The translations under genes were made by a program, and so were the position numbers. The notes beneath the pieces are model-generated. The model saw only the letters and a program-made list of their open reading frames with translations. It searched no databases and was not told where the DNA came from. Of a stretch of 64,000 bases of DNA, positions 9,236 through 39,374 are shown piece by piece; within the stretch, counting starts at the first letter, position 1; each line of letters opens with the position of its first letter. Source of the stretch: Pseudoxanthomonas wuyuanensis (GTDB taxonomy: Bacteria; Pseudomonadota; Gammaproteobacteria; Xanthomonadales; Xanthomonadaceae). The stretch spans positions 69,737-133,736 of the forward strand of contig NZ_OCND01000003.1 in assembly GCF_900215535.1 (NCBI RefSeq), given 5' to 3'.

Positions 9236-9339
9236 TGGCGAAATGGTACCGGTACTTGCCTGCGGCCGCACCGGAGCCGCGCTCCGGGGCGGCGCCGGGC
9301 CAGCCGCCGGGATGACGTTCTGGCTTGTTCCGCGCCGGG

Positions 9340-10146: not shown

Positions 10147-10302
10147 GGACGTCTCTCGTGTGCGGTGCCATCCAATGGCGCGAGTGGCCAAACAGCAGGA
10201 CGAAGAGTGAATGGACTACTGGGATAACCGTCACGCAACAGAAAAATTCTTCCCGTCATCAAGATTACATTCTATATCCGACTCCCTCTTGCCAAGGCAA
10301 GC

Positions 10303-10632: not shown

Positions 10633-13600
10633 GTGAATTCCACGTCTCAGCATCAGGTGGCGCAGTCCAATCGCCCTGGCATATTTCCTTTCGTTCTGGC
10701 CGCACTCGCGGCGGTAGGCACGCTTGTCGGCGTGCCGGCCCTGGCCCAGTCCTCCGTCACCAACGTGGCACGCATCGCCAATCCGTCCGGCGTGCCCTGC
10801 GTGGACGCCGATACCAATCCGAACTGCGAGCGTACCGACAACGCGGTGGTCGACATCACGCCGTTGCCAATCATCAGTTCGTCTAAAGCCGCAGCTCCCG
10901 CCAGCGATGCGACGGTAAACCCGGGCGATACCATCACCTATACGGTCAGCACCACGGTGGCGGATGGGTCCACCACGGCGGATTTCCAACTGATCGACAC
11001 GGCCAGTGCCGGACTGACGCTGGGGACGATCACCACGCAAGCACCGGAGTTCGGCGGCAGCTGCGCTGTCTCGGGGCAAACGTTGACGTGTGCGTTGCCG
11101 TCGGGCACGGCGGTGGGCACCTATGACGTCAGCTATACCGCCACCGTCAACGCGAACGCGACCGGTACGGTCGACAATCAGGTCGCGATCTCCGGCGGCG
11201 GGGATCCGGATCCGCTCTGCGATCCGTGCTCCACGCAGCACACCATCATCCCGGCCGCGGTCACCCGCGCCAAGACCAGCAACCCGGCCTCCGGTTCTTC
11301 GGTGGAAGTGGGCGATACCATCACTTATACCCTGACGCTGACCGTCGCCGGCTCCGCCACCACGCAGTTGGAAGCGTTGCAGGACACCTTGGGAACCGGC
11401 CTGAGCTTTGGTTCCATCGTCAGCCAGTCGGCAGAATTCGCCGGCAGTTGCGCCGGTTCCGGTCAGGCGCTGACCTGTTCGCTGCCGTCGGGCACGCTGC
11501 CGGGCGTCTACGAGGTCGTATACACGGCTACCGTTGCCGCTGGCGCGACCGGTTCGCTGAGCAATACGGTGAACGACTGCGCGGCGATCGGCGACACCTG
11601 TGGCACCAGCCATGAAGTGTCCGCCGTGACGGTCGCCAAGTCGGCCAGTCCCGCCGATGGCGCGTCGGTGGAAGCCGGCGACACCGTCACCTATACGCTG
11701 ACCTATACCGTGACCGGCGGCGCTTCCACCGAAGCCAAGACCGCCAACGACCAATTGGGTGCAGGTCTGACGTTCGGTGCTGTCGGTGCGATCAGCGATC
11801 CGGCCCAGCTGAGCTGCACCGGCGGTTCGCCGATGGCCTGCACCTTGGCCACTGGCGCACCCGCCGGCACCTACACGGTCGAGTACACCGCCACTGTCGA
11901 TGCGAATGCCAGCGGTAGCGTGAGCAACACGGTGACCGGTGTCGACTGTGCCACCGCGGGCGGCTGCGAGACCACCCACGATGTGTCGTCCGTCACCGTC
12001 GCCAAGTCGGCCAACCCGGCCAGCGGTGCGTCGGTGGAAGCCGGCGACACCATCACCTATACGTTGACCTATACCGTGACCGGCGGCGCTTCCACCGAAG
12101 CCAAGACCGCCAACGATCAGCTGGGCGCGGGCCTGACTTTCGGCGCCATTGGCACGATCAGCGATCCGACCCAGCTGAGCTGCACCGGCAGCTCGCCGAT
12201 GGCCTGCACGCTGGCGGCCGGCGCACCGGCCGGCAGCTACACGGTGCAATACACCGCCACGGTCGATGCGGGCGCCGCCGGCAACGTAAGCAACACGGTG
12301 ACCGGCGTCGATTGCGCCACCGCGGGCGGTTGCGAGACCAGCCACGAAGTGTCGGCGGTGACGGTCGCCAAGTCGGCCAGCCCGGCTACCGGTGCATCGG
12401 TGGAAGCCGGCGACACCATCACCTACACGTTGACGTTCGACGTCACCGGCGGTGCATCCACCGAAGCCAAGACCGCGAACGACCAGTTGGGCGCGGGCCT
12501 GACCTTCAGCGCCGTGGGCGCAATCAGCGATCCGACCCAGCTGAGCTGCACCGGCGGCTCGCCGATGGCCTGCACGCTGTCGGCCGGCGCACCGGCCGGC
12601 AGCTACACCGTGCAATACACCGCCACGGTCGATGCGGGCGCCACCGGCACCGTCACCAACAGCGTGAGCGGCGTCGATTGCGCCACGACGGGCGGTTGCA
12701 CCACTTCGCATGAGCTGTCTTCGGTCACCGTAGCCAAGTCGGCCAGCCCGGCCACGGGCACGTCGGTGGAAGCCGGCGACACCATCACCTACACGTTGAC
12801 GTTCGACGTAACCGGCGGCGTGTCCACCGAAGCCAAGACCGCCAACGACCAATTGGGTACGGGCCTGACATTCGGTGCGGTCGGCGCGATCAGCGACCCG
12901 GCCCAGCTGAGCTGCACCGGGGGTTCGCCGATGACGTGCACGCTGGCGCAAGGCGCGCCGGCGGGCACCTACACCGTGCAGTACACCGCCACGGTCGATG
13001 CGGGCGCCACCGGCACCGTCACCAACACCGTGAGCGGCGTCGACTGCGCCACCGTGGGCGCTTGCACCACCACGCACGAATTATCTTCGGTCACGGTCGC
13101 CAAGTCGGCCAGCCCGGCCACGGGCGCGTCGGTGGAAGCGGGCGACACCATCACCTATACGCTGACCTACACCGTGAGCGGCGGCGCGTCCACCGAAGCC
13201 AAGACCGCCAACGACCAACTGGGCGCGGGCCTGAGCTTCGGCGCGGTGGGTGCGATCAGCGACCCGGGCCGGCTGAGCTGCACCGGCGGCTCGCCGATGG
13301 CGTGCACGCTGGCTGCCGGCGCACCGGCGGGCACCTACACCGTCCAATACACCGCCACCGTCGATGCCGGTGCTACCGGCAGCGTCACCAATACGGTGAC
13401 TGGTGTCGATTGCGCGACCGCCGGTGGTTGCGAGACCAGTCACAACCTGTCGTCCGTCACCGTGGCCAAGTCGGCCAATCCCGCCAACGGCGCCTCGGTG
13501 GAAGCCGGCGATACCATCACCTACACATTGACCTACAACGTGACCGGTGGTCCGTCGCCGGTGGCCAAGACCGCCACCGATCAACTTGGAGCAGGCCTGA

Positions 13601-16600
13601 GCTTCGGAGCCTTGGGCGCGATCAGCGACCCGGGCCAGCTGAGCTGCACCGGCGGTTCGCCGATGGCGTGCACGCTGGCCGCCGGCGCACCCGCCGGCAC
13701 CTATACCGTTCAGTACACCGCCACCGTCGATGCCAATGCCACCGGCATCGTCACCAACACGGTGAGCGGCGTCGACTGCGCCACGGCCGGCGGTTGCACT
13801 ACCACCCACGTGCTGTCGGCGGTGACCGTCGCCAAGTCGGCCAATCCCGCCAACGGCACCTCGGTGGAAGCCGGCGAAACCATCGGCTACACGCTGACCT
13901 TCACCGTGCTGGATGCGGCATCGTCAGAAGCCAAGACCGCCACCGATCAACTGGGCGCGGGCCTGACCTTCGGCAGCGTCGGCGCCATCAGCGACCCGGG
14001 CCAGCTGAGCTGCACCGGCGGTTCGCCGATGGCCTGCACGCTGGCGGCCGGCGCACCGGCGGGCACCTATACCGTTCAGTACACCGCCACCGTCGATGCG
14101 AGTGCCGCAGGCAGCCTCACCAACACCGTGAGCGGCGTAACCTGTGCCACGACGGATGGCTGCACCACCTCGCACGATGTGTCGGCGGTGACCGTGGCCA
14201 AGTCGGCCAGCCCGGCCAGCGGCGCATCGGTCGAAGCCGGCGACACCATCACCTATACGCTGACCTACAACGTCACCGGAGGCGCTTCTGCGGAAGCGAA
14301 GACCGCCAACGATCAATTGGGCACCGGTCTGACCTTCGGTGCGGTCGGTGCAATCAGCGATCCGGGCCAACTGAGCTGCACCGGCGCTTCGCCGATGGCG
14401 TGCACGCTGGCCGCCGGCGCTCCGGTAGGCACCTACACCGTGCAATACACCGCGACGGTCGACGCTGGCGCCACGGGTAGCGTCACCAACACCGTCAGCG
14501 GCGTCGACTGCACCACGGCCGGTGGCTGCACCACCGCGCACGATCTGTCTTCGGTCACTGTCGCCAAGTCGGCGAGCCCGGCCAGCGGCGCATCGGTGGA
14601 AGCCGGCGACACCATCACCTATACGCTGACCTATACGGTGACCGGTGGTCCGTCTTCGGAAGCGAAAATCGCCAACGACCAACTGGGCGCAGGCCTGACC
14701 TTCGGTGCCGTGGGCACGATCAGCGATCCCGGCCAGCTGAGCTGCACCGGCGCTTCGCCGATGGTATGCACGCTGGCGCAAGGCGCACCGGCGGGCAGTT
14801 ACACCGTGCAGTACACCGCCACGGTCGATGCGGGTGCCACGGGTAGCGTCACCAACACGGTGAGCGGCGTCGATTGCGCCACCGCGGGCGGCTGCACGAC
14901 CTCGCACGATGTGTCGGCCGTGACGGTGGCCAAGTCGGCCAATCCCGCCAATGGCACCTCGGTGGAAGCCGGCGACACCATCACCTATATGCTGACCTAC
15001 ACCGTGACCGGCGGTTCGTCGCCGGAAGCCAAAACCGCCAACGACCAGTTGGGCGCAGGTCTGACCTTTGGTGCCGTGGGCGCGATCAGCGATCCCGGCC
15101 AGCTGAGCTGCGCTGGCGGTTCGCCGATGGCCTGCACGCTGGCGGCCGGCGCACCGGCAGGCACCTATACGGTGGAATACACCGCCACGGTCAATGCCGG
15201 TGCGACGGGCGCACTGACCAATACGGTGAGCGGCGTGACCTGCGCCAGTGCCGGCGCTTGCACCACCTCGCACGATGTCTCGACCGTGACGGTGGCCAAG
15301 TCGGCGAGTCCGGCCAGTGGCGCGTCGGTGGAAGCCGGCGACACCATCACCTACACGCTGACCTACACCGTGACCGGTGGCGCATCCACGGAAGCCAAGA
15401 CCGCGAACGATCAACTGGGTACCGGACTGACCTTCGGCGCGATCGGCAGCATCAGCGACGCCAGCCGCCTCAGCTGCACCGGGGCTTCGCCGCTGGTGTG
15501 CACGCTGGCGGCCGGCGCACCGGCAGGCAGCTACACCGTGCAATACACCGCGACGGTGGATGCTGGAGCAAGCGGCGCCGTCACCAACACGGTGACGGGT
15601 GTGCCGTGCACCACCGCAAGCGGCTGTACCACCACCCACGACCTGTCTTCGGTCACCGTGGCCAAGTCGGCCAGCCCAGCCACCGGCACGTCGGTGGAAG
15701 CCGGCGACACCATCACCTACACGTTGACCTATACCGTGACCGGTGGTGCGTCCACCGAAGCCAAGACCGCCAACGATCAACTCGGCGCAGGCCTGGTCTT
15801 CGGTGCGGTGGGCGCGATCAGCGATGCCAGCCGGTTGAACTGCACCGGCAGCTCACCGATGACGTGCACGCTGGCGACCGGCGCACCGGCAGGCACCTAC
15901 ACCGTGCAGTACACCGCCACCGTCGGCGCGGACGCCTCCGGCGCCGTGACCAACACTGTGGGCGGCATCGACTGCGCCACTGCGGGCGGCTGCACCACCT
16001 CGCACGACATCTCGGCGGTGACGGTGGCCAAGACGGCCAATCCGGCCAGCGGTACGTCGGTGGAAGCCGGCGACACCATCACCTATACGCTGACCTATAC
16101 CGTCATCGGTGGCGCGTCCACCGAAGCCAAGACCGCCAACGATCAACTGGGCGCCGGCTTGACCTTCGGTGCGGTGGGCGCGATCAGCGACCCCAGTCAG
16201 CTGAGCTGCACCGACGGTTCGCCGATGGCCTGTACCTTGGCTGCCGGCGCACCGGCAGGCACCTACACGGTGGAATACACCGCCACGGTCAATGCCGATG
16301 CAACGGGCGCTTTGACCAATACGGTAAGCGGCGTGACCTGCGCGGCGACCGGCAGTTGCACCACGTCGCACGACGTATCGACGGTAACAGTGCAGAAGAC
16401 CGCGGCCCCCGCCAACGGCTCGTCGGTGGAAGCCGGCGACACCATCACCTACACGCTGACCTACACCGTGGTCGGTGGCGCTACGACGGAAGCCAAGACC
16501 GCCAGCGATCAGCTGGGTGCGGGCCTGACCTTTGGCGCCATCGGGACCATCAGCGATGCCAGCCGCCTCAGCTGCACCGGGGCTTCGCCGCTGGTATGCA

Positions 16601-19578
16601 CGCTCGCGGCCGGCACTCCGGCGGGCACCTATACGGTGGAATACACCGCTACCGTCAACGCCGATGCCACCGGCGCGGTAACCAACACGGTGACCGGCGT
16701 ACCTTGCGCCGCGGCCGATGGCTGCACCACATCGCACGACATCTCGGCGGTGACGGTGGCCAAGTCCGCCAACCCGGCCAGCGGCGCATCGGTGGAAGCC
16801 GGCGACACCATCACCTATACGCTGACCTACACTGTCACCGGCGGTGCATCGTCCGAGCCGAAACCCGCCACCGACCAGTTGGGCGCTGGTCTGACCTTCG
16901 GTGCGGTGGGAACCATCAGCGACGCAGGCCAGCTGAGCTGCACCGGTAGCGTGCCGATGGTCTGCACCCTGGCGCAGGGTGCGCCGGCGGGCACCTATAC
17001 GGTCGAATACACCGCTATCGTCAACCCCGATGCCGCCGGTACCGTCACCAACACGGTGAGCGGCGTCGACTGCGCCAGCGCAGACGGCTGCACGACATCG
17101 CATGACGTGTCGACGATAACGGTGCAGAAGAGCGCCAATCCCGCCAGCGGCACCCCGGTGACCGCGGGCGAGACCATCACCTACACCTTGACCTTCGTCG
17201 TAGATGGCGGCGCTTCCACTGAAGCCAAGGTCGCCAGCGATCAGTTGGGCGCCGGCCTGACCTTCGGAGCCATCGGGGCCGTCAGCGATGCCAGCCAGCT
17301 CAGCTGCGCCGGCGCATCGCCGATGACGTGCACATTGGCCGCGGGTGCGCCCGCCGGCACCTATACGGCCGAATACACCGCCACCGTGGACATGGCGGCT
17401 GTCGGTACCGTCACCAACACGGTCAGCGGCATCGCTTGCGCCACCACCGACGGTTGCACCACCTCGCACGACCTGCGCGCCAGCGTGGCGGTGATCAAGA
17501 CGTCACTGCCCGATGTCGGCACTGAGGTGAGCGTGGGCGACACCCTCCAGTACACGCTGACCGCCACAGTCGAACACGGCACCACCGACAACGAAGTGCG
17601 CCTGACCGACACCCCCGGCGCAGGCCTGACCATCGGCGCGCTGCCGGCTGGCTGCGCGGCGGGGACCGGACAGATCGTCTGCACGCTGCCGGCGGGTACG
17701 GTCCCGGGTACCTACACCTTCGTCTACGACGCCACCATCGACGCATCCGCCAACGGCAGCGTCGCCAATGTGGTGGTGGCGACGCACAACAGCAGTTCCA
17801 TCGAGGTCACCTGCGCCAGCTGCAACACACAGCACGTCGTGGTGGAGCGGCCGTCGCTGCGCGTAGCCAAGACCTCCAGCGTACGCGAGGCGCGTATTGG
17901 CGACCTGGTGCGCTACACCGTCACGGTGGAAAACGTCGGCGCCACCAATGCCAACAACGTCTCGCTGCTGGACACGCCGCCGGCCGGTTTCACCTACGTC
18001 GAAGGCTCGCTGTCGGTGGTGGATGGCGACAACGCCGCCACCACAAGCGGCCAGAACCCGATCCGCTTCGACGGCCTGGATATCGCCGCCGGACAATCGG
18101 CCACGCTGGTCTACCTGATGCGGGTCGGCGCCGGTGTGCGTCCGGGCGTGCACGTCAACCAGGCGCAGGCGGTGTCGTCCACCGGCACCCCGATCTCGAA
18201 CATCGCCACGGCCGAGTTGACGCTGGCATCCGATCCGCTGATCGACGACAGCCTGATCTTCGGCACCGTGTTCAACGACCGCGACGGCGATGGCTGGCAG
18301 GACAACGCAGCGCTGACCGGCGTGCGCGTGCAGGGTGGCTTCGCGGCTGGCGCCTACGTGCCGAATTCGACTTCGATCGACCGCGGCCACGGTGCGCAAC
18401 CGCTGTCGGATGCCAGCGCACCGCTGCTGCACGGCGTCGATGTGGGCGCCATCGCAGCGCGGCAGTCGGAAGCCGATCCGGTGGAGGCGCACCAAGTGGT
18501 CATTAGCCAGCGCCTGGCCGAGCCGAGCTTCACCGACGACTTCGTGCTGACCAGCGATCAAGGTGTGACCGTCCGCATGGACGCGGACGGCCGCACCACC
18601 GTGCAGAAGAGCGGCGAAGCGGCGAAGGGCTTGAATGCGGCCGCACCGACGGTGGAGCGCCGCATTGCGCAGGGCGAGGGCGGCTTTGTAGTCGACTACG
18701 TCATCAGCAATGACGGCATCGACGAGCGCGGCCTGCCGGGCGTGCGCATCGCCTCGGTCGAAGGCCTGTTGATCGAGACCGATCAGTTCGGCCGCTATCA
18801 CCTGGTCGGCATTCCGGGCGGCGCCGCCAGCCGCGGCCGCAATTTCATCCTGAAGGTGGATCCGGCCACGCTGCCAGGCGGTACCCAGATGACCACCGAC
18901 AATCCGCTGATCCGCCGCATCACCCCCGGGCTGCCGGTGCGCTTCGACTTTGGCGCGAAGATTCCGGTCGAAGAAATCCCCGGCGGCACGCGGCAGATCG
19001 ATCTGGAACTGGGCGAAGTGATCTTCGCGCCCGGCAGCGCCGAAGTCCACGAGGCCTATCTGCCGGTGATCGCAAGCATCACCGCCAAGCTGGACGAATA
19101 CCGTGGCGGAGACGTGGTGATCAGCGTCGACGGCGATGGCGATGCGCTGGCGTTCGACCGCGCCGCAGCGGTGAAGGCGGCGCTGATGCAACGGCTGCCG
19201 ACCGAACTGGTCCCGGCCGTCAGCGTCAGCGTGCGCACCGATGCCAGCGACCCGGCCACCCGCGTCGCCGGGCTGGATGGCCAGGGCGCGTTGCTGGGTA
19301 CGGTGCTGTTCGATACCGACCGTTCCGACATCCGTCCGGAGTTCGCGCCGCTGCTGGATCGCATCGCGGCCTATCTGGAGCAGGCCGGCGGCGGCACCGT
19401 ATCGATCGTCGGACATGCCGATCTGCGGGCCTCGGATGCCTACAACCTTGCACTGGGCATGCGCCGCGCCCGCGCGGTCTACGAAGCCTTGGCCGCGCGG
19501 TTGAGCCCCGAAGTGCGAAGCCGGGTGCGTGTAGAGCCCGCCCGCAATCCGGCATCGACCGCAGCCGACAGCCAGTGA
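10633..19578 (+). CDS. Giant DUF11-repeat surface protein with OmpA domain (module A)
   Basis: 2981 residues from the GTG at 10633, preferred because GGGAGGGA lies just upstream; an in-frame ATG at 10579 would add 18 residues before the signal peptide. The signal peptide ends near residue 38 (GVPALA-Q). Two divergent DUF11-like domains come first, then 16 tandem DUF11-type units of exactly 122 residues (about 332-2283; each opens VTVAKSA.P..G.SVEAGDTITYTL and carries two short Cys-containing stretches). A divergent unit and a canonical DUF11 domain (RIGDLVRYTVTVENVG, about 2405-2520) follow. Next is an SdrD-B/EF-hand-like stretch (FGTVFNDRDGDGWQD), then SVEGLLIETDQFGRYHL. At the end a degenerate and a canonical OmpA-like domain sit in tandem (about 2790-2975; VGHADLRASDAYN). 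It is likely a long stalk fixed to peptidoglycan by its C-terminus. It is co-directional with, and 11 bases before, the barrel gene. Its function is unknown. Confidence 0.9.
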   Translation: MNSTSQHQVAQSNRPGIFPFVLAALAAVGTLVGVPALAQSSVTNVARIANPSGVPCVDADTNPNCERTDNAVVDITPLPIISSSKAAAPASDATVNPGDTITYTVSTTVADGSTTADFQLIDTASAGLTLGTITTQAPEFGGSCAVSGQTLTCALPSGTAVGTYDVSYTATVNANATGTVDNQVAISGGGDPDPLCDPCSTQHTIIPAAVTRAKTSNPASGSSVEVGDTITYTLTLTVAGSATTQLEALQDTLGTGLSFGSIVSQSAEFAGSCAGSGQALTCSLPSGTLPGVYEVVYTATVAAGATGSLSNTVNDCAAIGDTCGTSHEVSAVTVAKSASPADGASVEAGDTVTYTLTYTVTGGASTEAKTANDQLGAGLTFGAVGAISDPAQLSCTGGSPMACTLATGAPAGTYTVEYTATVDANASGSVSNTVTGVDCATAGGCETTHDVSSVTVAKSANPASGASVEAGDTITYTLTYTVTGGASTEAKTANDQLGAGLTFGAIGTISDPTQLSCTGSSPMACTLAAGAPAGSYTVQYTATVDAGAAGNVSNTVTGVDCATAGGCETSHEVSAVTVAKSASPATGASVEAGDTITYTLTFDVTGGASTEAKTANDQLGAGLTFSAVGAISDPTQLSCTGGSPMACTLSAGAPAGSYTVQYTATVDAGATGTVTNSVSGVDCATTGGCTTSHELSSVTVAKSASPATGTSVEAGDTITYTLTFDVTGGVSTEAKTANDQLGTGLTFGAVGAISDPAQLSCTGGSPMTCTLAQGAPAGTYTVQYTATVDAGATGTVTNTVSGVDCATVGACTTTHELSSVTVAKSASPATGASVEAGDTITYTLTYTVSGGASTEAKTANDQLGAGLSFGAVGAISDPGRLSCTGGSPMACTLAAGAPAGTYTVQYTATVDAGATGSVTNTVTGVDCATAGGCETSHNLSSVTVAKSANPANGASVEAGDTITYTLTYNVTGGPSPVAKTATDQLGAGLSFGALGAISDPGQLSCTGGSPMACTLAAGAPAGTYTVQYTATVDANATGIVTNTVSGVDCATAGGCTTTHVLSAVTVAKSANPANGTSVEAGETIGYTLTFTVLDAASSEAKTATDQLGAGLTFGSVGAISDPGQLSCTGGSPMACTLAAGAPAGTYTVQYTATVDASAAGSLTNTVSGVTCATTDGCTTSHDVSAVTVAKSASPASGASVEAGDTITYTLTYNVTGGASAEAKTANDQLGTGLTFGAVGAISDPGQLSCTGASPMACTLAAGAPVGTYTVQYTATVDAGATGSVTNTVSGVDCTTAGGCTTAHDLSSVTVAKSASPASGASVEAGDTITYTLTYTVTGGPSSEAKIANDQLGAGLTFGAVGTISDPGQLSCTGASPMVCTLAQGAPAGSYTVQYTATVDAGATGSVTNTVSGVDCATAGGCTTSHDVSAVTVAKSANPANGTSVEAGDTITYMLTYTVTGGSSPEAKTANDQLGAGLTFGAVGAISDPGQLSCAGGSPMACTLAAGAPAGTYTVEYTATVNAGATGALTNTVSGVTCASAGACTTSHDVSTVTVAKSASPASGASVEAGDTITYTLTYTVTGGASTEAKTANDQLGTGLTFGAIGSISDASRLSCTGASPLVCTLAAGAPAGSYTVQYTATVDAGASGAVTNTVTGVPCTTASGCTTTHDLSSVTVAKSASPATGTSVEAGDTITYTLTYTVTGGASTEAKTANDQLGAGLVFGAVGAISDASRLNCTGSSPMTCTLATGAPAGTYTVQYTATVGADASGAVTNTVGGIDCATAGGCTTSHDISAVTVAKTANPASGTSVEAGDTITYTLTYTVIGGASTEAKTANDQLGAGLTFGAVGAISDPSQLSCTDGSPMACTLAAGAPAGTYTVEYTATVNADATGALTNTVSGVTCAATGSCTTSHDVSTVTVQKTAAPANGSSVEAGDTITYTLTYTVVGGATTEAKTASDQLGAGLTFGAIGTISDASRLSCTGASPLVCTLAAGTPAGTYTVEYTATVNADATGAVTNTVTGVPCAAADGCTTSHDISAVTVAKSANPASGASVEAGDTITYTLTYTVTGGASSEPKPATDQLGAGLTFGAVGTISDAGQLSCTGSVPMVCTLAQGAPAGTYTVEYTAIVNPDAAGTVTNTVSGVDCASADGCTTSHDVSTITVQKSANPASGTPVTAGETITYTLTFVVDGGASTEAKVASDQLGAGLTFGAIGAVSDASQLSCAGASPMTCTLAAGAPAGTYTAEYTATVDMAAVGTVTNTVSGIACATTDGCTTSHDLRASVAVIKTSLPDVGTEVSVGDTLQYTLTATVEHGTTDNEVRLTDTPGAGLTIGALPAGCAAGTGQIVCTLPAGTVPGTYTFVYDATIDASANGSVANVVVATHNSSSIEVTCASCNTQHVVVERPSLRVAKTSSVREARIGDLVRYTVTVENVGATNANNVSLLDTPPAGFTYVEGSLSVVDGDNAATTSGQNPIRFDGLDIAAGQSATLVYLMRVGAGVRPGVHVNQAQAVSSTGTPISNIATAELTLASDPLIDDSLIFGTVFNDRDGDGWQDNAALTGVRVQGGFAAGAYVPNSTSIDRGHGAQPLSDASAPLLHGVDVGAIAARQSEADPVEAHQVVISQRLAEPSFTDDFVLTSDQGVTVRMDADGRTTVQKSGEAAKGLNAAAPTVERRIAQGEGGFVVDYVISNDGIDERGLPGVRIASVEGLLIETDQFGRYHLVGIPGGAASRGRNFILKVDPATLPGGTQMTTDNPLIRRITPGLPVRFDFGAKIPVEEIPGGTRQIDLELGEVIFAPGSAEVHEAYLPVIASITAKLDEYRGGDVVISVDGDGDALAFDRAAAVKAALMQRLPTELVPAVSVSVRTDASDPATRVAGLDGQGALLGTVLFDTDRSDIRPEFAPLLDRIAAYLEQAGGGTVSIVGHADLRASDAYNLALGMRRARAVYEALAARLSPEVRSRVRVEPARNPASTAADSQ
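11626..17481 (+). repeat. 16 tandem repeats of 366 bp coding DUF11 units
   Basis: Sixteen consecutive copies begin every 366 bases, from the codons for VTVAKSASPADG at 11626 to VQKSANPASG in the last unit (starting 17116). The divergent unit at 11260 is also in 366-base register. No unit has gained or lost a codon. The copies differ by scattered substitutions (for example GGASTEAK, GGPSSEAK, DAASSEAK). Such long similar tandem DNA is prone to copy-number change by recombination and to assembly collapse. Confidence 0.93.
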
Positions 19579-19589
19579 AGGAGCACGCC

Positions 19590-23324: not shown

Positions 23325-23325
23325 G

Positions 23326-23958: not shown

Positions 23959-24261
23959 TCGACAGGATGGAATGGATAAGAAGATAGGCGCCTGAGCAAA
24001 CATCAGGTAAGCGGTACTACGTAGTAGCGGCATCCCGGCGCGAGTTCCTGTTGGTCAGGCGCACCGCAGGGAATCGCGCAAGAGCTCGCCGCGGAACACC
24101 GCTCCTAAGCGATATGTTGCGTAGCGATTGGGACAAGATGGCGTATAGGGAACTCCGTTGTAGGAGCGACGTGAGTCGCGATGAGGCTTTACCGGCAACG
24201 TGCCATCGCGACTCACGTCGCCCCTGCAAATAGACAAGGCGGAAAATCAGAGGCTAGTCGA
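23959..24261. other. Intergenic stretch with palindromes
   Basis: No convincing gene. It contains the palindrome TACTACGTAGTA (24015-24026) and a pair of REP-like elements in inverted orientation (24159-24227). The short frames across it are translations of these repeats. A promoter for the next gene should lie here but none is clear. Confidence 0.5.
24159..24227. repeat. Inverted pair of REP-like palindromes
   Basis: 24159-24183 and the reverse complement of 24203-24227 agree at 23 of 25 positions, with a 19-base loop. Each arm itself contains the palindrome GCGAC-GTGA-GTCGC. This is the layout of a REP doublet, as common in Pseudomonas and Xanthomonadaceae. A related single element is at 39463-39487. 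Such doublets can act as transcription-end or mRNA-stabilising structures. Confidence 0.7.
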
Positions 24262-31500: not shown

Positions 31501-34500
31501 GTGACCAATGCCGGCGGCTTCACCTGCAGCGGGCAACTGGAATGCACGCTGCCGGCAAACACCGCTCCCGGCACCTATGCGGTGACCTACACCGCCACGG
31601 TCGATGCCGATGCCTCCGGTACGGTCGGCAACAGCGTGGCCATCACCAGCGACGGCGGCGATCCGGATCCGGAATGCACGACCTGCAGCACCGAACACCC
31701 GATCGCGCTGCCGGTAATCGGCACGGTGAAGTCGGCCAACCCCGCCAGCGGCAGCCAGGTGCAGCCCGGCGACACCATCACCTACACGCTGACCACGACG
31801 GTGGCGACTTCGGCGACGACCGCACCGTTCGTGCTGACCGACACGCTGGGCGCTGGCCTGAGCTTCGGTGCCGTTGTCGATAGCGGCGACTTCAGCTGCA
31901 GCGGCCAGCTGGTGTGCACGCTGCCGGCTGGCACGGTCGCCGGTGTCTACACGGTGACCTACAACGCGACGGTCAATGCCGATGCCACCGGTACGGTCGG
32001 CAACAGCGTGGCCATCACCGGCAACGGCGGCGATCCGGATCCCGAGTGCACGAGCTGCAACACCGAGCACCCGATCGTGCTGCCGACGATCGGTACCACC
32101 AAGTCCGCCAATCCGGCCGCTGGCAGCCAGGTGCAGCCGGGCGACACCATCACCTACACGCTGACCACCACCATCGCCAGCTCGGCCACGGCCGCGCCGT
32201 TCCGGCTGGTCGACACGCTGGGCGCGGGCCTGACCTTCGGCGCGGTAACCGATGCCGGCGGCTACACCTGCAGCGGCCAATTGGAGTGCACGCTGCCGGC
32301 CGGCACACTGCCGGGTACCTATGCGGTGACCTACACCGTCACCGTCGATGCCGATGCCACCGGCACGGTCGGCAACAGTGTGGTCATCGCCGAAGACGGC
32401 GGAGATCCGGATTCGGCATGCACGGTCTGCCAGACCGAGCACCCGATCGCGCTGCCGGCCATCAGCACGGTGAAGTCGGCCAACCCGGCCAGCGGCAGCC
32501 AGGTGCAGCCGGGCGACACCCTCACCTACACGCTGACCACCACCATCGCCACCTCGGCGACGACCGCACCGTTCGTGCTGACCGACACGCTGGGTGCGGG
32601 CCTGAGCTTTGGCGAAGTGACCAACGCCGGCGGGTTTGCCTGCAGCGGGCAACTGGAGTGCACGCTGCCGGCCGGCACGCTGCCGGGCAGCTATGCGGTG
32701 ACCTATACCGCCACCGTCGATGCCGATGCCACCGGTTCGGTCGGCAACAGCGTGGTCGTCACCAGCGACGGTGGCGATCCGGATCCGGAATGCACGAACT
32801 GCAGCACCGAACACCCGATTACGCTGCCGACGATCGCGACGGTCAAGACCGCCGATCCGGCCGATGGCAGCGAAGTGAGGCCGGGCGATACGCTGACCTA
32901 TACGCTGACCACGACCATCGCGACCTCGGCGACGACGGCACCGTTCGTGCTGACCGATACGCTGGGCGCGGGCCTGAGCTTTGGCGAAGTGACCGATGCC
33001 GGCGCGTTCGCCTGCAGCGGTGAGTTGGAGTGCACGCTGCCGGCCGGCACGCTGCCGGGCAGTTATGCGGTGACCTACACCGCCACCGTCAACGCCGGTG
33101 CCACCGGTTCGGTCGGCAACAGCGTGGTGGTCACCGGCGACGGCGGCGATCCGGATCCGGAGTGCGCGACCTGCGCCACCGAGCACCCGATTGCGCTGCC
33201 AACGATCGCGACGGTCAAGACCGCGGATCCGGCCGATGGCAGCGAAGTACGGGCGGGCGACACGCTGACCTATACGCTGACCACGACCATCGCGACGGCG
33301 GCCACGACCGCACCGTTCGTGCTGACCGACACGCTGGGCACGGGCCTGAGCTTCGGTGCGGTGACCAGCGCCGGCGAGTTCACCTGCAGCGGCCAGCTGG
33401 AATGCACGCTGCCGACCGGCACGCTGCCGGGCACCTATGCGGTGACCTACACGGCCACGGTCGATGCCGATGCCGTCGATTCGGTCGGCAACAGCGTGGT
33501 CGTCACCGAGGGCGGCGGCGATCCGGAACCGGAGTGCACGAGCTGCAGCACCGAGCATCCGCTGGCCGAGCCGGTCATCACCATCGTCAAGAGCGCCAAC
33601 CCGGGCGCGGGTGGCGAGGTCAGCATCGGCGACACCATCGACTACACGTTGACGGTGACGATTGAGAACGCGGCCATTCCGTCCGAATTGCGCCTGACCG
33701 ACACCCCGGGTGCGGGCCTGAGCGTCGGCGCGATGCCGGCCGGCTGCAGCAACGGTGCAGCGCAGATTGTCTGCATCATGGCCGCCGGTACGGTGCCGGG
33801 TACCTACACCTTCGTCTACCCAGCGACGGTCAACGCCAATGCCACCGGTGAGGTGCGCAACGCGGTCACCGGCGAGCATGTCGGCAGCAGCATCGTCCCG
33901 ATTTGCGAGAGCTGCGACACCTCGCACCGGGTGCTGGAGAGCGCGGAACTGCGCATCGTCAAGGCCGCGGGCGTGCGCACGGCGCGCATCGGCGACCTGG
34001 TGCGCTACACGCTGACGGTGGAGAACGTCGGCACCGCCAACCTCAGCAACGGCACCGTCATCGACACGCCGCCAGCGGGCTTCAGCTACGTGGAAGGTTC
34101 GATGAGCGTGGCCGACGGCGATGGCGCCTTCGTGCTGGCGGCGGGCCGTTACCCGCTGCGCATCGGCGGACTGGACATTGCCGCCGGCGAGCAGGCGAGC
34201 ATCGTCTACCTGTTGCGGGTCGGCGCCGGCGTGCGCCAGGGCACTCAGGTCAACGAGGCGGTGGCGCAGAACCCGGCCGGCAACCCGATTTCCAATGTCG
34301 CCACCGCGCAGGTCACGGTGGAGTCGGACCCGCTGCTCGATGACAGCCTGATCTTCGGCACCGTCTTCGACGACCGCGACGGCGACGGCTGGCAGGACAG
34401 CGCGGCCCTGAGCGGGGTGAGGGTGCAGGGCGGCTTTGCCGCGGACGCCTACATCGCCGGCTCCACGGTCATCGACCACGGTGCCGGGCCCCAACCGGTG

Positions 34501-35658
34501 GCCGACGCCAGCGCTCCGCTGCTGCATGGCATCGACCTGGACCAGCTCGCTGGCCGCCAGTCGCCGGCCGATCCAGGCCCGCGGGTGGTGATCCGCCAGC
34601 GCCTGCGTGAGGCGGCATTCACCAACGACTTTGTGTTGACCACCGAACAAGGAGCGATCGTGCGTATGGATGCGTCTGGCACCACCAGGCTGGAGCACAG
34701 CGGTGACGCCGCCAAGGGCCGCAACGCGGCCGCACCGACCGTGGAGCGGCGCATTGCCCAGGGCGAAGGCGGTGTGGTGGTCGACTATGTCATCGGCAAT
34801 GCCGGCATCGACGAGCGCGGCGTTCCCGGCGTGCGCGTGGCCTCGGTGGACGGGCTGTTGATCGAGACCGACCAGTACGGCCGTTACCACCTGGCCGATG
34901 TGCCAGGCGGCGAGCGTGGCTACCGCAACTTCATCCTCAAGGTCGACCCGTCGACGCTGCCGCCGGGCACGCCGTTCACCACCGACAACCCGCTGGTAAG
35001 GCGGATCACTCCCGGCATCCCGGTGCGCTTCGACTTCGGCGTGAAGCTGCCAGTGGTCGAAATCCCCGGCAGCACCGAACAGGTCGAACTGATGCTGGGC
35101 GAGGTGATCTTTGCGCCGGACAGCGCGGAAGTGCGGGACGAGTACCTGCCGGCAATCGCAAAGATGGCCGAACAGGTCAACGCCTACGGCGGCGGCGAGG
35201 TGGTGATCAGTGCCGACGGCGACCGCCAGGCGCTGGCCTTCGACCGCGCCAGCGCGGTGCGCGAGGCACTGCTGGCGCAGGTGGCGCCGGAGCATCGCCC
35301 AGCGCTGACGGTCACCGTGCGCACCGATGTGCACGAGCTGATGGCCGGCGCCAACGAGAGCGGCGCACTGCTGGGGACGGTGCTGTTCGACACCGACCGT
35401 GCGCAGATAAGGCCGGAGTTCGCACCGCTGCTCGACCGTGTGGCGGCCCGGCTGTCAAGCATGGGCGGCGGCACCGTGGCGCTGGTCGGGCACACCGATG
35501 TGCGTGGCTCGCATGCCTACAACACGGCGCTGGGAATGCGCCGGGCGCGAGCGGTGTACGAGGCTCTGGCCGAACGATTGAGTCCCGAGGTGCGCGCCCA
35601 GGTGCGCGTGGAGTCCAGCAACGATCCGACAGCCCCTGTCGGTCCGGAACGCAAGTGA
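28570..35658 (+). CDS. Giant DUF11-repeat surface protein with OmpA domain (module B)
   Basis: 2362 residues from the ATG at 28570 (MSKQDKIPG); GTG at 28561 and TTG at 28543 are weaker in-frame options. The signal peptide ends near residue 52 (ALPAAA-NE). The N-terminal ~250 residues (CRLADPNSNGEHVGTICWFQF, VPFEFDLPDGS) resemble a surface-adhesin module of the CshA type. Then come one DUF11 unit (EVSAQKTADPADG), a DUF6923-like propeller region (~544-790), a diverged DUF11, and six 124-residue DUF11 units (~926-1669). A divergent unit, a canonical DUF11 (RIGDLVRYTLTVENVG), the SdrD-B-like FGTVFDDRDGDGWQD and tandem degenerate/canonical OmpA domains (VGHTDVRGSHAYNTALGMRRA) close the protein. 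From the divergent unit onward it matches module A closely, while the N-terminal half is different. So anchor and stalk base are conserved and the tip is variable. Confidence 0.9.
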   Translation: MSKQDKIPGAAGCRARALHVLHPWMSRRLSGGWTLLVLLAALMFGVALPAAANECRLADPNSNGEHVGTICWFQFGAVDEDLLSGTSNVPFEFDLPDGSRVELNVSVSGGSAANPRLTVRQAPTWTGSNFSGNSGFYTIFTPNAAALHSPDGRGNGAVLTLSDIRLYAPDGTEVTDLPFEIVVADAERLNSNPEHLDFGVVSGGTPWNVLEWLGNAPAAAVQQGTPATLDPGIASACLGSYVDCLRFKGMTSGSDANAVVLTSQKVVGSAQPFTVMGQIHSAAGQGFAIGVRCCAMRLRKVLPEGRADPADQFTYSIVNVNDQTVSTGTTTGSATGAYPYISTMAMSGNALTLVEEMAPGSASTLEAYARRIVCVNTRTGQTVLDDTYNPNAPPTLNVLEMGDVVDCDLINTPLSPEVSAQKTADPADGTQVQPGQTITYTLTATVATSATTAPLRLVDTLGAGLTFGTVTDPGDFTCSGVLDCVLPAGTAPGTYALTYTATVDANASGTVGNSVAITENGGDPDPECTSCTTGHPVATAVAYDFCPVGANPIFSIVNGVDVYRYEPGAGADAVVPELALPLAGNVNGMMVDPVRNRLLFVQRVTSSNTVLWAYDAANGGWYEAQASFASPDFPRAGMAPNGIGYMIAGGTATPQVWRVTADGAFGYTAALAGTLAFDIAPTDLGSGDIAFDAAGNGWLSAGQDLYRFDPATLQATRQARPLLNGTPSTINWAGVAFGSDGTLYVANNGGSGQPATYYAYNPATGVLTPQVATAAGASRDLASCAFPVLAEPELSVAKTLAEVNGVAYTPGAAVRAGDVLTYAIAIANAGGAVGTLFPGDVVETLPAGTASVAAGNDFACTGSDCRNTATFNIAANAAVTLNFVVQIDDPLPPGIGSIDNAVTVRDVDCAAPGNDCDETTPIAPAVVVTKAAAPGDGNEVQAGDTITYTLTATLSGGATTDVFTLTDTLGAGLSFGAVTNAGGFTCSGQLECTLPANTAPGTYAVTYTATVDADASGTVGNSVAITSDGGDPDPECTTCSTEHPIALPVIGTVKSANPASGSQVQPGDTITYTLTTTVATSATTAPFVLTDTLGAGLSFGAVVDSGDFSCSGQLVCTLPAGTVAGVYTVTYNATVNADATGTVGNSVAITGNGGDPDPECTSCNTEHPIVLPTIGTTKSANPAAGSQVQPGDTITYTLTTTIASSATAAPFRLVDTLGAGLTFGAVTDAGGYTCSGQLECTLPAGTLPGTYAVTYTVTVDADATGTVGNSVVIAEDGGDPDSACTVCQTEHPIALPAISTVKSANPASGSQVQPGDTLTYTLTTTIATSATTAPFVLTDTLGAGLSFGEVTNAGGFACSGQLECTLPAGTLPGSYAVTYTATVDADATGSVGNSVVVTSDGGDPDPECTNCSTEHPITLPTIATVKTADPADGSEVRPGDTLTYTLTTTIATSATTAPFVLTDTLGAGLSFGEVTDAGAFACSGELECTLPAGTLPGSYAVTYTATVNAGATGSVGNSVVVTGDGGDPDPECATCATEHPIALPTIATVKTADPADGSEVRAGDTLTYTLTTTIATAATTAPFVLTDTLGTGLSFGAVTSAGEFTCSGQLECTLPTGTLPGTYAVTYTATVDADAVDSVGNSVVVTEGGGDPEPECTSCSTEHPLAEPVITIVKSANPGAGGEVSIGDTIDYTLTVTIENAAIPSELRLTDTPGAGLSVGAMPAGCSNGAAQIVCIMAAGTVPGTYTFVYPATVNANATGEVRNAVTGEHVGSSIVPICESCDTSHRVLESAELRIVKAAGVRTARIGDLVRYTLTVENVGTANLSNGTVIDTPPAGFSYVEGSMSVADGDGAFVLAAGRYPLRIGGLDIAAGEQASIVYLLRVGAGVRQGTQVNEAVAQNPAGNPISNVATAQVTVESDPLLDDSLIFGTVFDDRDGDGWQDSAALSGVRVQGGFAADAYIAGSTVIDHGAGPQPVADASAPLLHGIDLDQLAGRQSPADPGPRVVIRQRLREAAFTNDFVLTTEQGAIVRMDASGTTRLEHSGDAAKGRNAAAPTVERRIAQGEGGVVVDYVIGNAGIDERGVPGVRVASVDGLLIETDQYGRYHLADVPGGERGYRNFILKVDPSTLPPGTPFTTDNPLVRRITPGIPVRFDFGVKLPVVEIPGSTEQVELMLGEVIFAPDSAEVRDEYLPAIAKMAEQVNAYGGGEVVISADGDRQALAFDRASAVREALLAQVAPEHRPALTVTVRTDVHELMAGANESGALLGTVLFDTDRAQIRPEFAPLLDRVAARLSSMGGGTVALVGHTDVRGSHAYNTALGMRRARAVYEALAERLSPEVRAQVRVESSNDPTAPVGPERK
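31345..33576 (+). repeat. 6 tandem repeats of 372 bp coding DUF11 units
   Basis: Six consecutive units start every 372 bases (31345, 31717 and so on; the divergent seventh begins at 33577, in register). Each encodes 124 residues opening with a VKSANPASGSQVQPGDTITYTL-type sequence and closing with GDPDPECTSCSTEHP. Unit length differs from the 366-base units of module A, and the unit sequences are more alike within each array than between arrays. Confidence 0.9.
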
Positions 35659-35672
35659 GAGGGGACCGGATC

Positions 35673-38600
35673 ATGAAGATGAAGCTGCTTGACTACACCT
35701 TGATTGGCATCCTGGCAGGGATGTCGCAGATGGCCCTGGCGCAGGCGCAGGGCACGGACGCCGCGTCCGCCGCTGCTGGCCAGGACGGCGGTGCGGCACA
35801 GCCGACGATGGACTGCGGCGCCACCGGTTGCATGTCCGACGAAGGATTGCTGTTCAAGCTGCGCACGCGCAGCTACGACCATCCGGTGACGGAGGGCACC
35901 AGTGCGGGTTCGTCCTCGGCGGCGCTGCAGCCGGACCGGCGCGTGAGCATCGGGCTGGAAGCGCCCGGCCGCGCGGTGGCGCAGGGACGCTTCTCGGTGA
36001 ACCTGCCCGGCGGCGGGGTCATCTGGGCGACTGAAGACCCGACCCTGGGCCGGCCCGAGCTGTCGGTATCGGCGCCGACGATGGTGCCGTTCGACGGCAC
36101 CGCCATCACCGGCCCGGTGCGCTTTTTCGTGCGCGGCAATTACTCGGCCTTCATCGAGCGGATGGAGCTGGCGGTGTTCCGCGGCAACGACGGCGACCTG
36201 GTGGAGCCGTTGGCGCAGGTGCCGATTGACGTCGCGGCGGTGTCGCAGACCGAGTGGGACGGCGCCCTGCCATCGAACATCCGCTTCCGCGCCGGCGACG
36301 AGCTGGTCTACGTGCTGCGTGCCATCGATGCCGCCGGCAACGTCGACCAGACCCACCCGCGGCGGCTGCAGCTGGTGCGGCCGGAAGAGGCCGAACGCGG
36401 CCGGCAGGTGCTGCGCGAGAGCACCGAGCGTGCGCTGGGCACCGCGTTGAGCCAGGAGCAGGCGCAGACCCAGCAGCTGGTCGATGACGCGTTCTCCGAG
36501 AGCACGCTGCGCTACCAGAACATTCCCATTTACGGCTCGCGCGTGCGCGTGCAGGGGCGCAACCTGCCGGCCGGCTACGGCCTGCTCATCAACGGCGACA
36601 GCTACCCGGTGGACCTGGAACGCAAGTTCGTGGCCGAGTACCTGATGCCGGTGGGCCAGCACGCGTTCGACATCGCCCTGCAGGGCGGCCAAGGCGCCAC
36701 GCCGGCGCAGTACCGGCTGGACGTGGACGTGAGCGGGCGCTACTTCTTCGGCGTCGGCCTGGCCGACATCACCGTGTACCAGAACAAGGCCAGCGGTCCG
36801 GGCCGCGAGCTGGCCCTGGCCGGGCGCGAGGACGACCTCCTCAGCGATGGCCGGCTGGCCTTCTACCTGAAGGCCAAGGCACGCGGCAAATACCTCATCA
36901 CCGCCCAGGCCGACACCCAGGACCGGCCGCTGGAGGACCTGTTCGACGGCTTCACCCAGGCCGACCCGCAGGACATCTTCCGGCGCCTGGACCCGGACCT
37001 GTACTACCCGACCTATGGCGATGACTCCACCACCTACCGCGATGTCGACACGATGGGGCGGTTCTACCTGCGGGTGGACTGGGACAAGAACGAAGCGCTG
37101 TGGGGCAACTTCGCCACCGGCATCACCGGCACCGAGTACGCGCAGTACGTGCGCTCGCTGTACGGGGCGGCGCTGAACTGGCGTTCGCGCTCGGCCAATG
37201 CCTGGGGCGACCCGGTGAGCGAGCTGCGCGCGTTCGGTTCCGAGGCGCAGACCGCACCGGGCCATAGCGAGTTCCTCGGCACCGGCGGCAGCCTGTACTA
37301 CCTGCGCCATACCGACGTGCTGCCGGGTTCGGACCAGGTGGTGCTGGAAGTGCGCGACCTGACGACTGGCCGGGTCGAGCAGCGCATCGACCTGCAGCGC
37401 GGGGCCGACTACGAGATTGACGAGTTGCAGGGGCGGCTGCTGCTGACCCGGCCGCTGGCGCAGATTACCCGCCAGAACGTCCCGGGCATCACCCGCGACA
37501 CCCCGCTGGACGGCTACGAGCAACGGTTGCTGGTGGACTACGAGTGGGTGCCGTCGGACTTCAATGCCGACGAGGTGACCGCCGGCGTGCGTGGCAAGCA
37601 CTGGTTCGGCGACCATGTCGGCGTGGGCGTCACCTATGTCGACGAGAACCGCGCCGGCGAGGACTACACGCTGATGGCGGCCGATGTCACGCTGCAAGCG
37701 GGCAAGGGCACCTACCTGAAGCTGGAGCACAGCCGCACCGAAGCGACCAGCGCCCCGGTGTTCTTCTCCGACAACGGCGGCCTGTCCTTCACCCGCCTCA
37801 ACCCGACCGGCCCGCGCGAGGGCGAGGCCAGCGCGGTCGAGGCGCGGGTCAACTTCCGCGAACTGGGCTGGAGCGAACAGGACTGGAGTGCGGCCGCGTG
37901 GTGGCGTCAAGTTGACGCCGGCTACTCCATCTCGCGCTACGACAACGGCCAGGCCGTGGAGGAGCACGGCGCCGAACTGCTGGGCCAGTTCAGCGCCAAC
38001 CTGGGCATCTACGCCCGCTACAGCAAGGCCGAGCGCGGCAGCGAGTCGCTGACCCAGGCCCAGCTCAATGGCCAGTGGCGCATCGACGAGGACGGCACGC
38101 TGGAGGCGGAGCTGCGCCGCGTCGAAGAACAGCGCAGCAGCGGCGACGTCGCCGGCATGCTGGGCGCGCTGCGCTACACCCACCGCTTCGGCACCGCGCT
38201 GGACGTGTACGGCACCGCCCAGTTCACCCTGGACGATGACGATGGACGTTATGCCGACAACGACGCCTACGCGCTGGGCGCCCGCTACAACTTCGCCAAC
38301 CTGTCCAACATCGGCGCCGAAGTCACCACCGGCGACCGCGGCGATGCGGCCACCGTCAGCGGCGAGTACCGGCTCAGCCCGCAGCACAGCTTCTATGGCA
38401 GCTACAGCGCTTCCACCGACAGCACCGAGTACGACTCGCTGTTCAACCCCAACCGCCAGAACGGCTGGACTTTCGGCCAGCGCTGGCGGCTGTCCAACCA
38501 GGTCAACCTGTTCAACGAGAGCCAGTTTTTGAAGAGCCGCAGCGAGTCGGGCCTGGCGCACACCTTCGGCATGGACTTCTACCCGGCGGTGGGCTGGAAC

Positions 38601-39374
38601 CTGGGCTTCACCCTCAGCGACGGCGAACTGACCAACAGCAGCGGTGGCCAGGTCGACCGCCGCGCCATCAGCGTCAGCGGCGGACGCACCTCGCCGGACA
38701 CCGACTGGCAGAGCAAGCTGGAGTGGCGCCGCGACAGCGGCGTGGAGCGGCGCACGCAGTGGGTCAGCACCCACCGCCTGAGCCACAAGCTCAACGAGAG
38801 CTGGCGCATCGCCGGGCGCTTCAACTATGCCGATACCGATGACGAACTGAACCCGGCCGCCGGCGCCAAGTTCATCGAGGGCAACCTGGGCTTTGCCTAC
38901 CGGCCGTGGAACAGCAGTCGCTGGGGGCTGTTCGGCCGCTACACCTACCTGTACGACCTGGCCACGCTGGGGCAGGTGGGCGGCGCGCAATACGACCAGA
39001 AGAGCCAGGTGCTGTCGTTCGAGGGCGTATACCGGCTCAACCAGAACTGGGAAGTGGCGGCCAAGCTGGCGCGTCGCGAAGGCGAAGTGCGCTATGGCCG
39101 CGGCACCGGGCAATGGTTCGACTCGGCCACCACCTTCGCTGCCGGCCAGCTGCGTTACGAACTGCTGCAGAAGTGGCATGCCCTGGCCGAGTACCGCTGG
39201 CTTGACGTCAAGGACGGAGGTACGCGCCAGGGATGGCTCCTGGGGGTGGACCGCGACATCGGCCGCAACTTCCGCCTCGGCGTGGGCTACAACTTCACCG
39301 AGTTCAGCGACGACCTGACCGACTTCGACTACGACCACAAGGGCTGGTTCGTCAACTTCGTGGGGAGCTATTGA
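35673..39374 (+). CDS. Outer-membrane beta-barrel partner of DUF11 protein (module B)
   Basis: 1233 residues from the ATG at 35673, with GAGAGGGGA upstream and 14 bases after the DUF11 stop. It is a close paralogue of the 19590-23324 product over its whole length: same signal (MKMKLLDYTLIG), IPIYGSRVRVQGRNLP, GRYFFGVGLADITV, LDPDLYYPTYGDDSTT, DYEWVPSDFNADE and the same end ...DYDHKGWFVNFVGSY. Gaps are few and lie in the N-terminal linker and the loop around residue 340. DNA similarity is high too, pointing to duplication of the two-gene module within the genome. Role as partner or exporter of the DUF11 protein is inferred from conserved pairing. Confidence 0.85.
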   Translation: MKMKLLDYTLIGILAGMSQMALAQAQGTDAASAAAGQDGGAAQPTMDCGATGCMSDEGLLFKLRTRSYDHPVTEGTSAGSSSAALQPDRRVSIGLEAPGRAVAQGRFSVNLPGGGVIWATEDPTLGRPELSVSAPTMVPFDGTAITGPVRFFVRGNYSAFIERMELAVFRGNDGDLVEPLAQVPIDVAAVSQTEWDGALPSNIRFRAGDELVYVLRAIDAAGNVDQTHPRRLQLVRPEEAERGRQVLRESTERALGTALSQEQAQTQQLVDDAFSESTLRYQNIPIYGSRVRVQGRNLPAGYGLLINGDSYPVDLERKFVAEYLMPVGQHAFDIALQGGQGATPAQYRLDVDVSGRYFFGVGLADITVYQNKASGPGRELALAGREDDLLSDGRLAFYLKAKARGKYLITAQADTQDRPLEDLFDGFTQADPQDIFRRLDPDLYYPTYGDDSTTYRDVDTMGRFYLRVDWDKNEALWGNFATGITGTEYAQYVRSLYGAALNWRSRSANAWGDPVSELRAFGSEAQTAPGHSEFLGTGGSLYYLRHTDVLPGSDQVVLEVRDLTTGRVEQRIDLQRGADYEIDELQGRLLLTRPLAQITRQNVPGITRDTPLDGYEQRLLVDYEWVPSDFNADEVTAGVRGKHWFGDHVGVGVTYVDENRAGEDYTLMAADVTLQAGKGTYLKLEHSRTEATSAPVFFSDNGGLSFTRLNPTGPREGEASAVEARVNFRELGWSEQDWSAAAWWRQVDAGYSISRYDNGQAVEEHGAELLGQFSANLGIYARYSKAERGSESLTQAQLNGQWRIDEDGTLEAELRRVEEQRSSGDVAGMLGALRYTHRFGTALDVYGTAQFTLDDDDGRYADNDAYALGARYNFANLSNIGAEVTTGDRGDAATVSGEYRLSPQHSFYGSYSASTDSTEYDSLFNPNRQNGWTFGQRWRLSNQVNLFNESQFLKSRSESGLAHTFGMDFYPAVGWNLGFTLSDGELTNSSGGQVDRRAISVSGGRTSPDTDWQSKLEWRRDSGVERRTQWVSTHRLSHKLNESWRIAGRFNYADTDDELNPAAGAKFIEGNLGFAYRPWNSSRWGLFGRYTYLYDLATLGQVGGAQYDQKSQVLSFEGVYRLNQNWEVAAKLARREGEVRYGRGTGQWFDSATTFAAGQLRYELLQKWHALAEYRWLDVKDGGTRQGWLLGVDRDIGRNFRLGVGYNFTEFSDDLTDFDYDHKGWFVNFVGSY

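Follow-up and report, generated by a model that had tools for sequence, protein, structure and literature searches.

How does a Gram-negative bacterium carry a giant adhesin-type fibre across its outer membrane? The question is raised by a 64-kb stretch of Pseudoxanthomonas wuyuanensis DNA (hereafter the window: 64,000 nucleotides of contig NZ_OCND01000003.1, from a genome of 4.67 Mb in 33 contigs), which carries the same two-gene module twice, a giant fibre gene followed by a gene for a predicted outer-membrane beta-barrel. The answer that we favour, at a probability of about 0.62, is that each fibre works with its predicted giant barrel, which would act as a dedicated exit gate and collar, the stalk presumably passing through it. 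The assembled structure is likely a peptidoglycan-anchored, cross-linked adhesin mast threaded through its own giant barrel.

All four genes lie on the plus strand. Fibre 1 (10633..19578, GTG start) encodes 2,981 residues comprising a signal peptide, about 20 CLIPPER/DUF11 units, an SdrD-like base and a degenerate plus a canonical OmpA domain. Fibre 2 (28570..35658, ATG start) encodes 2,362 residues with a signal peptide, a CshA_NR2 tip, a SpaA_3 domain and about 10 CLIPPER units. The barrel proteins have about 1,240 residues each and are encoded at 19590..23324 (barrel 1; putative ATG at 19590, frame open from a GTG at 19575) and 35673..39374 (barrel 2; putative ATG at 35673, frame open from a GTG at 35655). 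The fibre stop and the putative barrel ATG are separated by 11 bases in pair 1 and 14 in pair 2, and in both pairs the barrel open reading frame overlaps the preceding fibre stop by 4 bases. The original prediction had described two such pairs, with fibres of these lengths that begin with a signal peptide and contain many DUF11 units, each followed within 15 bases by the barrel gene; the reading frames and Pfam, which finds both DUF11 and DUF7927 units, bear this out. The MKLLD-like start of the barrel signal peptide (e.g., at 35673) is kept in several relatives. The host genome holds no barrel copy beyond these two at E 1e-3.

Pairing, fusion and descent of fibre and barrel

The pairing was followed in three partly overlapping samples in which the same species recur. 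Among the 80 best genome loci, which represent the closest relatives, a fibre base lies directly upstream of the barrel in 77; of the other three, one has the fibre directly downstream (L036), one is cut by a contig edge (L082) and one has a barrel with no fibre (L085). The N-terminus of the L085 barrel contains repeated VSIRARFGAEAE-like stretches. The second sample, a phylum-wide draw of 398 genomes (Pseudomonadota), gives barrel matches in 57 at E 1e-10, a count that includes the window genome and distant and partial relatives. Outside the window genome it contains 22 full-length barrels, 21 of which were examined at length (L126 lying in two frames). All 21 have a fibre, upstream in 19, downstream in one (L133/L153) and fused in one (L137), and in the short locus of the 22nd (G388; L105) a fibre base likewise precedes the barrel. 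The fibres of L008, L133 and L134, which escaped the initial profile of the base, were recognised from the record annotation, from a longer sequence and from the C-terminus as read, respectively.

The third sample covers the host family with 198 genomes, in which the count came to 79 barrels and 77 fibre bases. Before counting, 25 weaker barrel matches were set aside (24 belonging to a divergent subfamily, and a fragment of 177 residues at the edge of a contig), as were six fibre matches (five with OmpA alone and one that was a second piece of a fibre already counted). A fibre base stands within 3 kb upstream on the same strand for 73 of the 79 barrels, and 73 of the 77 fibre bases have a barrel after them. 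Of the six remaining barrels, one stands in swapped order (G457) and five are either fragments or close to a contig end on their upstream side. By this count four fibre bases are unpaired: one in G457, two in the fragmented genome G490 and one in G444. Fibre and barrel are nearly obligate partners and recur together across the Proteobacteria, and it is clearly not the case that barrels occur mostly without DUF11 neighbours. No third conserved neighbour was recognised in an all-against-all comparison of 6,086 mechanically called open frames, where a rarer partner is possible: the clusters shared by over 20 loci resemble fibre and barrel shadow frames, and the smaller ones printed (up to 16 loci) were left unassigned.

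The module is also found on plasmid records of several Alphaproteobacteria (L003, L005, L007, L008); six of 25 plasmid records were examined, and a giant frame adjoins the barrel in all six. A divergent barrel subfamily, which scores about 200 bits, has the fibre, the barrel and a separate OmpA gene in a row; L142 represents it within the host family, and L140 within a different family of the same class.

In some relatives the two partners form one chain. With the fused protein of L137 as query, 355 of 7,985 scored candidates matched; 120 of these were listed, and the 115 that were new were analysed. CLIPPER units and the barrel share a chain in 36 of these 115, in the order CLIPPER-OmpA-barrel (20) or CLIPPER-barrel (16) and in no other, and in all 36 the barrel ends no more than 10 residues from the C-terminus. 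The rest are nine OmpA-barrel proteins and 70 with the barrel only. Because a fused protein served as the query, fusions are over-represented here, and the finding is their order.

The peptidoglycan-binding module, by contrast with this fixed order, varies in position. It stands at the end of the fibre in the window copies, at the N-terminus of the barrel in L006, L127, L128, L129 and L132, and in a third gene in L004 and L123-L125; in the 21 phylum-wide loci, a canonical OmpA domain is at the fibre end in five, at the barrel N-terminus in four and in a third gene in three. LysM takes its place in five of the 120 proteins listed from the search for barrel relatives, and in the four that were read (P0039, P0047, P0083, P0088) it is N-terminal. 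A peptidoglycan domain carried by either partner would put the fibre base and the barrel N-terminus together in the periplasm.

The two partners also appear to share their descent. Distance matrices of fibre bases and barrels correlate over 62 pairs with r of 0.70, to which shared species history contributes, and none of 500 permutations reaches this value. Genomes that hold several pairs are more informative. Of nine paralogues examined there, seven have their closest fibre base and closest barrel together at one locus of another genome, one gives a tie and one a mismatch; the nine are not all independent, since some are mutual nearest neighbours. Near-obligate pairing, fixed-order fusions and matched descent together strongly support the dedicated two-component system that had been predicted. 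Within the window, the fibre bases are 68-69% and the barrels 73-75% identical, in keeping with the claim that both are conserved between the copies. The same claim spoke of a duplicated module: two copies are indeed present, but a recent duplication was rejected, each pair being closest to pairs in other genomes, and the copies are old paralogues. The tips behave otherwise. In 17 comparisons where barrels are at least 80% identical, drawn from 39 complete-looking fibres with mechanically taken start sites, the bases average 0.81 identity and the tips (first 350 residues) 0.22, and in seven of the 17 the tips have no match at all. Base, anchor and barrel thus form a conserved chassis on which the tip is swapped.

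Predicted structure of the barrel and the fibre

Neither barrel matches a Pfam or NCBIfam family above cut-off. NCBIfam finds nothing, and the only Pfam matches, both below cut-off, are DUF2490 for barrel 1 and OMP_b-brl for barrel 2. At E 0.01 there is no match in either barrel to an autotransporter barrel of the PF03797 type, to POTRA or TpsB models (Pfam, NCBIfam), or to TonB plug and TonB-receptor barrel models (Pfam), and barrel 2 has no sequence match in the PDB at E 1. The family itself is large, with 1,448 proteins at E 1e-3 among 7,998 candidates scored; the best named relative of barrel 2 among the 120 matches listed is a Pseudoxanthomonas protein at 94%.

An AlphaFold2 model of barrel 2 (residues 60-1239, 103 aligned sequences) has a mean predicted local distance difference test score (pLDDT) of 78.6 and a predicted template modelling score (pTM) of 0.73. 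Its first 300 modelled residues form strand-rich N-terminal domains and a helical pair. The predicted giant beta-barrel domain follows (36741..39368, plus strand; model residues 304-1179) with 44 strands of at least 6 residues, or 38 of at least 9, and the better-predicted C-terminal 618 residues (model 562-1179) hold 34 of the 44. Porin alignments span about 300-1180 of the model, as far as range end points tell, which fits the expectation if the first and last strands meet. Among predicted barrel strands, 40 of 47 show the alternation of amphipathic strands, a property that does not discriminate here because several strands of the soluble N-terminal domains alternate too. The model thus predicts a barrel of about 40 strands, of the size of SprA or larger.

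In the fibres, Pfam recognises DUF11 (PF01345; E 1.3e-105 in fibre 1 and 7.7e-71 in fibre 2), DUF7927 and related isopeptide-type domains, and one OmpA domain (PF00691) each. With a CLIPPER profile built from window units and then extended to 39 fibres, fibre 1 shows 20 CLIPPER-like units (10882..18216), mostly with a period of 122 residues, and fibre 2 shows 10 (29830..34314). A loose motif test detects the Lys/Asp/Asn arrangement of isopeptide type in 18 of the 20 and 8 of the 10, respectively. The same test, devised after a column-mapped version had failed on a solved unit, is positive in six of nine units of an Acinetobacter fibre, including the unit solved as PDB 9IFR; the column-mapped version, which scored no unit anywhere, even the solved one, was dropped. 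Every CLIPPER unit except the last of each fibre has four cysteines (19 units in fibre 1).

The conserved base of fibre 2 (34327..35655) consists of an SdrD-like domain with an insertion, a degenerate OmpA-fold domain (35023..35322) and a canonical OmpA domain (35383..35607); the canonical domain of fibre 1, identified by Pfam, lies at 19306..19509 (residues 2892-2959). The C-terminal 817 residues of fibre 2 were modelled with AlphaFold2 (pLDDT 89.6, pTM 0.53), and the model contains Ig-like domains, the SdrD-like stretch and two alpha/beta domains. Foldseek matches it to PrgB, SdrD, a streptococcal domain of antigen I/II type and numerous integrins, and over one domain to 9IFR at a root-mean-square deviation of 2.0 Å. 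The base had been predicted to contain tandem OmpA domains and an SdrD-B-like stretch, and both claims need qualification. The second OmpA domain is canonical and is found by Pfam and by structure matches in fibre 2, whereas the first has a degenerate OmpA fold (hhalign 98% in a single-pair comparison; alpha/beta in the model); Pfam calls SdrD_B in aligned relatives but not in the window copies. Single-pair hhalign comparisons also relate the short tails found on other fibres to the degenerate fold (89%) and, more weakly, to canonical OmpA (66%). At the opposite end, fibre 2 starts with CshA_NR2, an adhesin-type tip (28774..29442; residues 69-291, E 1.1e-11), followed by SpaA_3; Pfam recognises no tip domain in fibre 1.

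A proposed route through the outer membrane and its alternatives

The proposed sequence of events would begin with Sec export. Bam would then insert the barrel, whose last residue is aromatic, a usual trait of the proteins that this machinery handles. The SdrD/OmpA base of the fibre would stay in the periplasm beside the strand-rich N-terminal domains of the barrel, and its canonical OmpA domain would grip peptidoglycan. The CLIPPER stalk would run outward through the wide barrel with the N-terminal tip farthest from the cell, and isopeptide bonds and disulphides would make it resist pulling and proteases. The domain order, the rapid change of the tips and the CshA_NR2 domain on fibre 2 would agree with an OmpA end in the periplasm and a tip at the surface. 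The fused chains bear on the direction: if OmpA is periplasmic in a CLIPPER-OmpA-barrel chain, the chain must exit between OmpA and the tip, which leaves the N-terminus outermost. Adhesion would be the function of the fibre.

The best-surviving alternative, which we nevertheless consider unlikely, is that another machine such as type II secretion exports the fibre, the barrel serving only to secure the fibre base at the outer membrane. The fibres have plain signal peptides, folded and isopeptide-locked CLIPPER domains would suit an exporter of folded proteins, and the same window contains a separate OmpA-type helper beside an exported adhesin (the TpgA-like gene at 6074-6904). However, the fusions found in 36 of the 115 analysed proteins always have the barrel at the C-terminus, which is autotransporter order, and about 40 predicted strands would seem to be more than a collar needs. 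Passage through the barrel is favoured over a collar alone because the barrel is the nearest pore and some 40 strands would be wide enough for a folded Ig-like domain.

It is improbable that the barrel is a remote SprA relative exporting several substrates, as in the type IX secretion system. The Foldseek matches of the barrel model do include SprA chains (E about 1e-7), and the predicted strand number is similar, but many unrelated barrels score alike in the same listing (the Mtr complex, LptD, SlpA and TonB receptors also appear), no NCBIfam model matches the barrel, and there is nearly one fibre per barrel. Somewhat less probable again is a wholly periplasmic fibre that spaces the outer membrane from peptidoglycan with the barrel as its membrane foot: the OmpA end of fibre 2 matches solved Pal and peptidoglycan-associated OmpA structures, as such a spacer would have it, yet 10-20 CLIPPER units in a row would measure several times the width of the periplasm, the tip of fibre 2 is of adhesin type, and tips diverge far faster than the base. 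That the barrel is a TonB-dependent receptor with an unrelated fibre as its neighbour is hardly credible, despite the name that many family members bear in public records and the receptors among the Foldseek matches, given the lack of any Pfam plug or receptor match in the window barrels, the make-up of the first 300 modelled residues and the near-obligate pairing and fusion with the fibre.

Several observations weigh against the exit-gate reading itself. One full-length barrel, in a metagenome-assembled genome of the Caulobacterales (L085), has no fibre within 10 kb on either side, and a 344-residue fibre-base remnant (L158, in G444) has no barrel in the 14 kb examined. A canonical OmpA domain is present in only 12 of the 21 phylum-wide loci, and the other nine have at most a degenerate OmpA-like tail, so the peptidoglycan grip is not universal. 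Model confidence is low at residues 320-330 and 377-403 and in parts of 400-560, and there may be fewer strands, or two barrels rather than one. The Foldseek template modelling scores normalised on the barrel query are low (0.09-0.20 among the 50 matches listed), and we found in the literature no experiment on any barrel of the family.

A broader proposal is put forward only tentatively: this could be an export and anchoring system whose barrels, with about 40 strands and so more than SprA, form the largest family yet known in outer membranes, exporting folded, cross-linked masts whose OmpA base is clamped to peptidoglycan, with one-, two- and three-gene forms built on one plan. If the strand count holds, the barrel would equal or surpass the largest outer-membrane barrel solved so far, and the module would offer a simple two-gene model of how folded, cross-linked domains are exported. 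Naturally fused members bring structural work within reach.

Neighbouring genes and known systems

Between the two pairs lies a free-standing CLIPPER/SpaA_4/DUF6923 protein of 1155 residues (24181-27648, plus strand) with no OmpA or barrel match. A 210-residue frame directly after barrel 1 (23326-23958, plus strand) has a C-terminus resembling that of this protein and is possibly a fibre remnant. The stretch is rich in adhesins, since the window also holds a YadA-type trimeric autotransporter near its edge (41-5905, plus strand) and an OmpA+BamE protein resembling TpgA (6074-6904, plus strand; 158.9 bits, below the NCBI cut-off of 350). The modules are flanked by genes for a CHASE-PAS-GGDEF-EAL protein and two-component proteins (39603-42365 and 7517-10191, both minus strand; 42668-43615, plus strand), and cyclic diguanylate (c-di-GMP) may control the fibres.

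The fibre is of a known kind. Fibrillar CLIPPER adhesins of Gram-negative bacteria have been described in Acinetobacter, where a CLIPPER domain of B9T28_05395 was solved with its isopeptide bond (PDB 9IFR; PMC12617251), and Proteobacteria have also been reported to have CshA_NR2 polypeptides that combine DUF11 repeats with OmpA-like anchors (PMC10952558). The window fibres are of the same type, with the CLIPPER stalk, the OmpA-like end and, in fibre 2, a recognised adhesin-type tip; added here is the family-specific barrel gene after the fibre gene, which the main texts of both papers leave unmentioned. The words barrel, outer membrane and operon occur nowhere in either main text, and porin occurs once in that of PMC12617251, about archaea. 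Locus L059 comes from the strain of the 9IFR protein: its fibre frame of 2,129 residues is identical to 9IFR over all 121 aligned residues, and a barrel of the present family starts 12 bases after it. PMC12617251 prints the catalytic residue as Asp-748; the L059 translation has Asn at 748, in the stretch LNDTLG. No published description of the fibre-barrel pairing was found in the open-licence PMC literature. The pairing names the likely missing partner of CLIPPER fibres, on whose crossing of the outer membrane the published main texts are silent, and it would explain how Gram-negative bacteria mount such fibres. A possible link to cargo of the type XI secretion system was discarded, as the text seen of PMC12282271 names DUF11 once, in a DUF1194 architecture list, and the other matches there are to DUF1194.

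SprA, the type IX translocon, is described as having 36 strands and an interior of about 7 nm, wide enough for folded cargo (PMC7463736). The present barrel resembles it in being very large; no sequence relation was detected between them, and one adjoining fibre gene takes the place of a multi-gene machine. TpgA and the trimeric autotransporter adhesins likewise combine an adhesin with an OmpA-type helper, but there the helper is a separate small protein and a giant barrel is absent.

The remaining comparisons are with type V secretion. In two-partner secretion (TpsA/TpsB, type Vb), a fibre is exported by a dedicated barrel encoded in the same operon. The window module has the same layout, but no POTRA or TpsB model matches, the predicted barrel is much larger, and the fibre has an OmpA end. 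A classical autotransporter (type Va) has a barrel of 12 strands. The fused relatives resemble it in having the passenger first and the barrel at the C-terminus; the differences are that the window has two genes, that no autotransporter barrel model is matched, that about 40 strands are predicted and that OmpA stands between passenger and barrel in 20 of the 36 fused forms. The inverse autotransporters (intimin/invasin, type Ve) likewise form one unit from an Ig-like fibre, a barrel in the outer membrane and a domain presumed to bind peptidoglycan, but in the reverse order, with the periplasmic domain first, then a 12-strand barrel and then the passenger (PMC3467248). The original view of the module as distinct from type V therefore holds in that no type V barrel model matches, and fails in that the fused forms have the autotransporter order of passenger and C-terminal barrel. 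In general, this is a fibre of known kind in a two-partner export module that would work like a type V system while lacking, by sequence, the features of type V membership.

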